41,779 nt of DNA from an uncultured Mycoplasmatota bacterium (GTDB taxonomy: Bacteria > Bacillota_I > Bacilli_A > RF39 > UBA660): NCBI GenBank assembly GCA_946498375.1, contig CAMMOI010000007.1:1-41779 (forward strand), given 5' to 3'. The notes under the pieces were generated by a model, which did not search any database, was not told where the DNA came from, and was given only the letters and a program-made list of their open reading frames with translations. Shown here piece by piece: positions 30,672 through 33,166 of this stretch (within the stretch, counting starts at the first letter, position 1; each line of letters opens with the position of its first letter). Made by a program: the position numbers and the translations under genes.

Positions 30672-31091
30672 ATGTTAAATAAAGAAAATATGCTAAAAGA
30701 ATTGCAGAAATATAATTTTACTTATGAAAAAAATATTTTGTGTGGTCATACTAAATCTAAAGTAAAATGGGTGCTTCCTGCTGGGGCTATTAATGTAATT
30801 GCATTTGAACAAGCATCTAGTTATTTATTTGGCTTTACATCTGAGGGAATAAATATTTTCCCAGTTGATAGTAATTGGCAAATAAAAGAAAATTTAAGTC
30901 TTCCTTGGGAACAAATAATTGATTTTAAAATAAAAAAAGGCATTCTTTTAGAAAATGAGATGAAAATTCAAACAAATGATATGAAAATAGAGATGAAAAT
31001 AAATAAATTTATTGCTAATAATCCTTGGGTTAAAGAAAATATTAATTATTTAGAAAGTAAAAATTATTTTTATAACAAAAATATTGATTAA
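30672..31091 (+). CDS. Small soluble protein, possibly PH-like fold
   Basis: I do not recognise this 139-residue protein with confidence. It has no membrane segment. The middle reads like alternating beta strands (YLFGFTSEGINIFPV, WEQIIDFKIKKGILL) followed by a C-terminal helix (NNPWVKENINYLE), the order expected of bacterial PH-like domains. GAGGAG just after the permease stop places it in the same operon. A helper or immunity-type role for the transporter is possible but unproven. A terminator follows. Confidence 0.65.
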   Translation: MLNKENMLKELQKYNFTYEKNILCGHTKSKVKWVLPAGAINVIAFEQASSYLFGFTSEGINIFPVDSNWQIKENLSLPWEQIIDFKIKKGILLENEMKIQTNDMKIEMKINKFIANNPWVKENINYLESKNYFYNKNID

Positions 31092-31106: not shown

Positions 31107-31133
31107 GTGCACTATTAAAGTGTGCCTTTTTTT
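31107..31133 (+). terminator. Rho-independent terminator of the ABC operon
   Basis: GTGCACT (31107-31113) pairs with AGTGTGC (31119-31125), including two G-T pairs, and is followed by seven T's. Confidence 0.75.
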
Positions 31134-31173
31134 ATAACATAATAAAAAGTGAATATTGGATTTTAAAAAATAT

Positions 31174-31182
31174 TGTTATAAT
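31174..31182 (+). promoter_or_regulatory. Extended -10 promoter of the peptide gene
   Basis: TGTTATAAT is a perfect extended -10. TTGGAT at 31156-31161 is a possible -35 at a short 15-bp spacing. The start point would be about 20 nt before the ATG at 31209. Confidence 0.65.
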
Positions 31183-31208
31183 GAAATTAAAGATAGGAGT
31201 ACTGAAAA

Positions 31209-31373
31209 ATGAAAATAAGTTTTAATAAATTACAAGAAATTGATTTAGTAAATATGAATGGTGGTAAAAGGATAGTAAAGTCAAAAATGTTTATGAACAA
31301 TGATTGTAAAATTATAAAAACTATTTTAGAGCCAAATGCTCAGAGAAACAATAATAACAATATTCTTTCATAA
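31209..31373 (+). CDS. Double-glycine leader peptide (bacteriocin- or pheromone-like precursor)
   Basis: This 54-residue ORF has a complete small transcription unit: extended -10, AGGAG (31195-31199), ATG, stop at 31371-31373 and a terminator beginning at the stop. Its first 19 residues fit the double-glycine (type II) leader processed by PCAT/C39 peptidase transporters. Hydrophobic residues occur at -15 (F5), -12 (L8), -7 (L13) and -4 (M16), an acidic residue at -8 (D12), and GG at 18-19. The predicted mature peptide has 35 residues, starts KRIVKSK, is basic (seven Lys/Arg against two Asp/Glu), has one Cys and an Asn-rich end. No C39-type transporter is in the window. It is convergent with the RNase J gene. 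Confidence 0.75.
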   Translation: MKISFNKLQEIDLVNMNGGKRIVKSKMFMNNDCKIIKTILEPNAQRNNNNNILS

Positions 31374-31412
31374 AAAAATCTTTCCATTTATTTTATAACG
31401 GAAAGATTTTTT
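31373..31412. terminator. Bidirectional terminator between the peptide gene and rnj
   Basis: AAAAAATCTTTCC (31373-31385) pairs perfectly with GGAAAGATTTTTT (31400-31412) over 13 bp, with A/T-rich flanks suited to stopping both convergent genes. Confidence 0.88.
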
Positions 31413-31437: not shown

Positions 31438-33102
31438 TTATTTTATTTCCATAATTACTGGTAATATAATAGGTCTACGACCAGTTAAATTATTAATATA
31501 AGGACTTAATTCTAATATTATTTGATTTTTTAAATCAACAAAGCTATATGCTTTTGATTTTAAAGTGTTTTTAACAATCTCAGCTATTTTATGCTCAATT
31601 TTTTGAATTAGTTCAGCATTTTCATTAACTAAGACAAACCCACGAGTTGTTACATTAGGTTTAATCATTAATTCTTTAGTTTTAGTGTTAATATTTAAAA
31701 TAGTTACTAAAATACCATCTTTACTCATTAATTTTCGATCTTTAATAACGACACTTCCTACATCACCAATTCTAGAACCATCAACATAAACATCTCCAGC
31801 TTGAATACTTCCACCTTTATGAACACCATTATCATCTAAAATTAGTTCATCTCCATTACTCATTATGAATACTTTATCAGGATCCATTCCACATGAGACA
31901 GCTAGTTCTTTGTGTTCACGAAGCATTCTATATTCTCCATGCATCGGCATAAAATATTCTGGTTTAATAAGTCGTAACATTAATTTTAGTTCTTCGGCTT
32001 TTGCATGGCCAGAGGTATGAATATCGCTAAATTCGGAATTAGTATATACTTTAACACCCTTTAAATATAGTTTGTTAATAACGCGATTAATACTGGCAGC
32101 ATTTCCTGGAATAGGGGAAGATGAAAATACTACTAAATCATCATTCATTAATGATATTTGTTTATGAGTACCATTAGCAATTCGAGATAAGGCAGCAAGA
32201 GGCTCTCCTTGAGATCCAGTACAAAGAATACATACCTCATTTTTCTTTAAATTCTTAGCAGTATTTGAGTCAATAAATATACTACGATCAGTAAGTAGAC
32301 CATTATCCAGTGCTAAATTAATATTAGTTTCCATAGAACGACCAAAGACTACGATTTTACGATTATATTTTTTACAAGTCTCTACTATATGTTTAATTCT
32401 AAAAACATTAGAGGCAAAAGTCGCAATAATTAATCGACCGTAATGCTTAGCAAATATAGCCGATAATGCCTCATCAACTGTGCTTTCACTTTTAGAATAT
32501 CCCTCAGTTAAAGCATTAGTACTATCACTCATTAATAATTTAATACCTTTATCACTTAAGCGGGCCATTTTATGCAAATCGGCCATCGGACCAATTGGAT
32601 TTAAATCGAATTTAAAATCGCCAGTGGAAAAAATTGTTCCATTGGGACTATGGACTACAACTGCAAATGAATCAGGTATAGAGTGTGTAGTATTGACAAA
32701 TTCAACTTCAAAATGTTTAGTTTTAATATAACTATCTTTATCTATAGTTATGATATTATCATACTTTATAAGTTTTTCTTCTAATTTTTTATTTATCAGG
32801 GATACAGCCATCTTAGGAGCATATATGGCAGGGATTTTAACGCTTTGTAATAAAAAGGATATCCCTCCAATATGATCCTCATGACCATGGGTTATAAATA
32901 AAGCTTTAATTTTATCTTCATTTTGTTTTAAGTAAGTCACATCTTGGATTACATAATCAACTCCAAGTAAATCATTTTCGGGGAACATAACCCCCGCATC
33001 AATTATTACAATTTCATTTTTATGGGTAATAACATACATATTTTTCCCAACTTCACCAAGGCCGCCTAAAGCGACCACAGACGTAAAGTTATCTGTTTTC
33101 AT
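31438..33102 (-). CDS. rnj: Ribonuclease J
   Basis: The 554-residue enzyme has the metallo-beta-lactamase/beta-CASP core of RNase J, which both cleaves and 5'-3' degrades RNA in Bacillota. Visible motifs are THGHEDHIGG with H72, H74, D76 and H77 binding zinc, SDSTNALTEGYS, the beta-CASP segment, and FSDIHTSGHAKAEELK. The start is set at the minus-strand ATG at 33102, eight bases after GAAGGA; an in-frame TTG just before it is less likely. Without its paralogue in view, J1 and J2 cannot be told apart. Confidence 0.93.
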   Translation of the reverse strand: MKTDNFTSVVALGGLGEVGKNMYVITHKNEIVIIDAGVMFPENDLLGVDYVIQDVTYLKQNEDKIKALFITHGHEDHIGGISFLLQSVKIPAIYAPKMAVSLINKKLEEKLIKYDNIITIDKDSYIKTKHFEVEFVNTTHSIPDSFAVVVHSPNGTIFSTGDFKFDLNPIGPMADLHKMARLSDKGIKLLMSDSTNALTEGYSKSESTVDEALSAIFAKHYGRLIIATFASNVFRIKHIVETCKKYNRKIVVFGRSMETNINLALDNGLLTDRSIFIDSNTAKNLKKNEVCILCTGSQGEPLAALSRIANGTHKQISLMNDDLVVFSSSPIPGNAASINRVINKLYLKGVKVYTNSEFSDIHTSGHAKAEELKLMLRLIKPEYFMPMHGEYRMLREHKELAVSCGMDPDKVFIMSNGDELILDDNGVHKGGSIQAGDVYVDGSRIGDVGSVVIKDRKLMSKDGILVTILNINTKTKELMIKPNVTTRGFVLVNENAELIQKIEHKIAEIVKNTLKSKAYSFVDLKNQIILELSPYINNLTGRRPIILPVIMEIK

Positions 33103-33166
33103 CAATTAATTCCTTCTTTCAAAAATTTCTAAATTTATAAACATAAAAAAGTTAATTGCCGTTAAC

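Follow-up and report, generated by a model that had tools for sequence, protein, structure and literature searches.

Peptide substrates of PCATs, the ABC transporters with a C39 peptidase domain, carry a leader of about 14-25 residues that ends in GG, and linkage or co-regulation of such a GG peptide with its PCAT is usual but not obligatory. Hydrophobic residues mark positions -15, -12, -7 and -4 of these leaders (PMC7018657, PMC6959990); Met(-4) of the PCAT1 substrate packs on Gly135, and in LahT Val(-4) meets Ile (PMC6959990). GG peptides without a linked PCAT, so-called orphans, are known in other systems (PMC7018657). The window analyzed here, the whole stretch of 41,779 nucleotides, contains a candidate for such a peptide: a forward-strand ORF at 31209-31373 that starts with ATG and encodes 54 residues, read directly as MKISFNKLQEIDLVNMNGG|KRIVKSKMFMNNDCKIIKTILEPNAQRNNNNNILS. 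Its putative leader, MKISFNKLQEIDLVNMNGG (31209-31265), is 19 residues long and carries F, L, D, L and M at -15, -12, -8, -7 and -4 and GG at -2 and -1, exactly as the original prediction had it; the putative cargo, KRIVKSKMFMNNDCKIIKTILEPNAQRNNNNNILS (31266-31370), is likewise, as claimed, a basic sequence of 35 residues (net charge +5) with one Cys. We tentatively regard this ORF as a candidate species-specific, unlinked ("orphan") GG-leader peptide. This reading is held with somewhat less than even confidence and is closely rivalled by that of a small ORF with an incidental GG; the chance ORF and the non-exported protein discussed below weigh equally with it when taken together.

A genome search for a PCAT/ComA-type transporter, the check proposed with the original prediction, found a single C39-ABC transporter, located at C1:71929 on a different contig from the ORF, with a C39 domain at E 4.7e-32 and PCAT1 as its best match in the PDB (5.7e-23). 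The assembly of this genome (G000) comprises 969 kb and is 67.7% complete, and its sequence and gene content give the impression of a small-genome Bacilli member. The PCAT is present in 9/9 genomes of the genus, in all of which it is accompanied by a partner protein of ~150 aa and by two GG peptides, pepA and pepB; the exception to adjacency is G008, whose pepA/pepB lie on a different contig from the PCAT. The genome's own locus with this cargo spans L003:7900-10874 (G000:C1), and others are found at L047-L054 and L111-L140. The C-terminal end of pepA reads ..GVIDGIVRP..C and that of pepB ..MDVGRSLGTAIRRIYS..C, with a GxxxG motif in each; pepA carries GVIDG and pepB GRSLG. The 3' end of pepB is overlapped by a gene for a small membrane protein, and some pepA pass the NCBIfam model TIGR03949 (class IIb lactobin A/cerein 7B family). 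pepB occurs in 267/291 genomes and 144/150 genera of the family sample, and in 268 of the 288 genomes of the order sample, all of these belonging to one family. By their sequences, pepA and pepB appear to be a two-peptide, class IIb-like GG cargo of the PCAT. A literature search for class IIb bacteriocins spread across a family, or for work on this lineage, brought up nothing specific.

Two further observations concern this transporter and its locus. Comparison of the pepA starts (L003:10410-10420, L047, L049-L054, L149/L158) showed that in 9/9 genus genomes there is no well-placed ATG, GTG or TTG, and that an ATA or ATT stands at most about 10 nt after the ribosome site; one of these genes also has a GTG, but just 1 nt 3' of the ribosome site. 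The pepA genes of other genera start with ATG or GTG, and the start codon of the G000 PCAT seems to be ATT too. A second C39-like match in the genome, C3:9163, was rejected as a PCAT because it is a stand-alone protein of 223 aa (L002:1390-2061, G000:C3), which falls below the family cut-off and adjoins a recombinase and a histidine kinase.

The ORF resembles the described substrates of C39-ABC transporters (CtA of PCAT1; ComC and BlpI of ComA/BlpA) in its GG at -2/-1, its two Leu residues (-12 and -7), the hydrophobic character of positions -4 and -15, its short length and its ribosome site, but it differs from them in having no adjoining PCAT, a hydrophilic cargo, no conservation and a Met(-4) ill-suited to the Val in the -4 pocket of the genome's PCAT. 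With pepA and pepB it shares the leader pattern L(-12), E/D(-8), L(-7) and GG, whereas those peptides are hydrophobic or amphipathic, contain GxxxG, are conserved in the family and are linked to the PCAT, none of which holds for the ORF. Lying on a different contig and in a different transcription unit, the ORF is neither linked to nor co-regulated with the PCAT; in this it resembles the orphan GG peptides described elsewhere (PMC7018657), although it comes from a single genome only.

The resemblance to genuine cargo leaders was quantified with a matrix of 13 columns built from 66 pepA/pepB leaders across the family. Agreeing with these leaders at -12, -8, -7 and GG, the ORF leader scores 16.2 bits, where genuine leaders mostly reach 20-32, and the ORF is the top-scoring non-cargo entry among 1249 small ORFs (355 kb); the next two, at 11.6 and 7.4 bits, are YlmC starts, and the remainder score 5.6 or less. 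A six-frame matrix scan of 407 kb located one other non-cargo site that reaches the score of the ORF, within a sigma factor. With the matrix refitted on 65 leaders in a leave-one-out procedure, the ORF scores 15.1 bits against 16.1 for the lowest genuine leader. When GG is fixed, the leader is matched or beaten by 0.0004 (0.04%) of random 11-mers and by 32/20000 shuffles of the ORF (0.16%), and some 79 small ORFs per genome are expected to place a GG where a leader would end. The match is a moderate one, exceeding chance for one ORF but not overwhelming genome-wide. A profile of the cargo leaders gives the ORF 7.1 bits, compared with 19.5 for pepB and 14.4 for pepA of the same genome, and ranks it 12 of 5001, with 11/5000 of its own shuffles scoring higher; a search of the genome with this profile (E<=10) returned pepA and pepB only and did not list the ORF. 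Among the tblastn matches of the ORF are two real GG cargo peptides from other genera (L072, L076), with the leaders aligned.

The main misfit of the ORF leader is its Met at -4, a position at which 0/65 cargo leaders carry Met and which is instead I, V or L. In the genome's PCAT, Val is aligned to Gly135 of PCAT1 (Val or Ile in three congeners), and the Ala and Ile of the L(-7)/L(-12) knot are kept (Ala kept, Ile or Val in the three congener PCATs). Given the retained knot and the Val at the Gly135 place, the leader would probably be bound by this PCAT, with position -4 poorly accommodated. The earlier reading of the leader as carrying the positions that matter for C39 peptidase recognition is supported by its resemblance to real cargo leaders and weakened at Met(-4).

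The original prediction had also described a complete transcription unit. The extended -10, ribosome site, ORF and terminator are all present in the sequence, with the qualification that the promoter is unflagged by our scan and the terminator probably shared. The ribosome-binding site AGGAG (31195-31199, forward strand) lies 9 nt 5' of the ATG, and a ribosome-site match of at least 5 nt stands ahead of 10/15 real starts checked, versus 6.5% of ATGs in the window as a whole. The extended -10-like TGTTATAAT (31174-31182, forward strand), found by direct reading, ends 26 nt 5' of the ORF start and is without a good -35; because it goes unflagged in the consensus scan, and shuffles of this 79% AT stretch yield promoter-like sites just as often, the promoter weighs little as evidence. 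On the 3' side of the stop codon, a 13-pair hairpin followed by a T run forms a terminator (31373-31412; -13.2 kcal/mol, z -4.6) with convergent genes on both sides, and it is likely shared with the RNase J gene that ends at 31438. The sole terminator-like site in the stretch scanned, a forward-strand hairpin with T run at 31107-31125 (0.0 expected in shuffles), closes the ABC/139-aa unit on the 5' side, so the candidate ORF would form a separate transcription unit.

The alternative that survives best, one we consider unlikely but by no means negligible, is that the ORF is a chance or newly arisen functionless reading frame in AT-rich, variable intergenic DNA and that its GG and hydrophobic spacing are coincidental. 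An ATG ORF of at least 54 aa appears in 4.5% of simulations of 346 nt of the same composition. GC at codon positions 1-2-3 is a flat 24-20-20% in the ORF versus 39-28-14% in the neighbouring genes, and a gene-like pattern by codon position was not found in it. Leaders as good as that of the ORF are expected by chance at 0.03-0.13 per genome, which is not rare across a screen of many windows. Against this explanation stand the well-spaced ribosome site, the strong terminator and a codon score (0.21 per codon) that exceeds 17/17 out-of-frame ORFs, although 91% of segments from real genes score higher (9th percentile). Together, codon score, ribosome site and ORF length provide no more than moderate support for a real gene, and nothing indicates production of the peptide or its retention by selection.

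Conservation also favours a chance origin. Absence of the GG leader from close relatives was one of the two refuting conditions set with the original prediction, the other being a genome lacking a C39 peptidase, and no relative with the peptide was found. There was no convincing homologue in 59 relatives, including 8 congeners; tblastn (E<=0.1) against 386 family genomes gave a match in 35 versus ~39 expected by chance; and GTDB contigs, IMG/VR, phages, plasmids and the PDB contained no homologue. PHROGs returned a single weak match (E 0.18), and a cupin match in another family (L007), also single and weak, was dropped. The region past RNase J differs in each of the seven congeners read and is without a GG peptide in all of them. 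No leader-like ORF away from the PCAT reaches pepA/pepB strength in the congeners, so stand-alone cargo is not usual in this lineage. As for the neighbouring RNase J gene itself (window 31438-33105), 8/8 congeners carry a second RNase J-like gene, ~30-33% identical to it (loci L017-L031); only one RNase J was found in G000, which its 68% completeness may explain.

Slightly less probable is that the ORF encodes a real, species-specific small cytoplasmic protein in which GG is not a cleavage site. The ribosome site and terminator also speak for such a gene, and both the departure of Met(-4) from the cargo leaders and the hydrophilic sequence are consistent with it, but the joint occurrence of the -12, -8, -7 and GG leader pattern argues against it.

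An improbable further explanation is a decayed or truncated copy of a YlmC/YmxH PRC-barrel gene, as the YlmC start (LQ.KDIVNINDGKRIG) resembles the ORF leader. The ORF shares the N-terminal letters LQ..D.VN.N.GKRI with this protein, several of its weak tblastn matches are YlmC starts with ~40 residues aligned, and a YlmC profile of 30 members ranks it 8th of 5001 (the ORF and 5000 of its own shuffles). The number of matches nevertheless equals the chance expectation noted above for the 386 genomes, and the family was chosen post hoc from thousands. The ORF also lacks the marking residues (K after LQ., D before G, G of KRIG, D of IID), the conserved DG..G..ID core, a full PRC barrel and the C-terminal half of YlmC; it has no Pfam or NCBIfam match, and an intact YlmC is encoded elsewhere in the genome, at C1:40042.

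If the GG-peptide reading is correct, the nature of the cargo would still differ from that first suggested. The cargo has a GRAVY of -0.73 and a charge of +5, whereas the two genuine cargo peptides have GRAVY values of +1.26 and +0.19, and its hydrophilic character weakens the bacteriocin reading. Profile searches of Pfam and NCBIfam up to E 10 gave no match and no bacteriocin profile. Class II (IIb) bacteriocins are hydrophobic or amphipathic and have GxxxG, a partner peptide and an immunity gene, and none of these was found in the ORF or its unit. Since the cargo is unlike genuine cargo, we replace the label "bacteriocin" with "candidate orphan GG peptide"; the composition would favour a signalling or accessory peptide over a membrane-active class II bacteriocin.

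Resistance or immunity had been tentatively ascribed to the upstream operon. The only models that its ABC parts match are general ones of the LolCDE/MacB type, and these matches fall below the model cut-offs; a scan of GTDB contigs with the 823-aa permease found nothing. The 139-aa protein (window 30672-31091) has no match in Pfam, NCBIfam or PHROG; its relatives are sporadic (12/386 family genomes, its own included), at times occur as tandem pairs and in some copies contain internal stops. A bacteriocin protected by this MacB-like operon and the 139-aa protein is very improbable, as proximity alone speaks for it, and the immunity link is left unsupported by the separate terminator at 31107-31125, by the below-threshold ABC matches and by the lack of a GG peptide beside the 139-aa relatives in 11 genomes, tandem pairs included.

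For the preferred reading of an orphan GG peptide, the observed ORF, ribosome site, terminator, PCAT elsewhere in the genome and likeness of the leader to genuine cargo leaders provide the starting point from which we infer translation, cleavage and export. If expressed, the ORF product would dock through L(-12) and L(-7) on the sole PCAT's C39 peptidase domain, be cleaved behind the GG and be released through the PCAT as a 35-residue basic, hydrophilic peptide.

As a single unconserved candidate GG peptide, weak and fairly ordinary, the ORF carries little weight on its own. The more useful by-product of this work is the conserved PCAT with its two-peptide GG cargo, present in >90% of sampled genomes of a small-genome family, and the near-core presence of pepA/pepB across that family is unusual for a bacteriocin-like locus. 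That a strain-specific, unlinked, hydrophilic and basic GG peptide uses the family-wide PCAT of this reduced-genome lineage is doubtful on present evidence, but if true, the conserved PCAT would double as an exit route for signalling or competition peptides that change fast.
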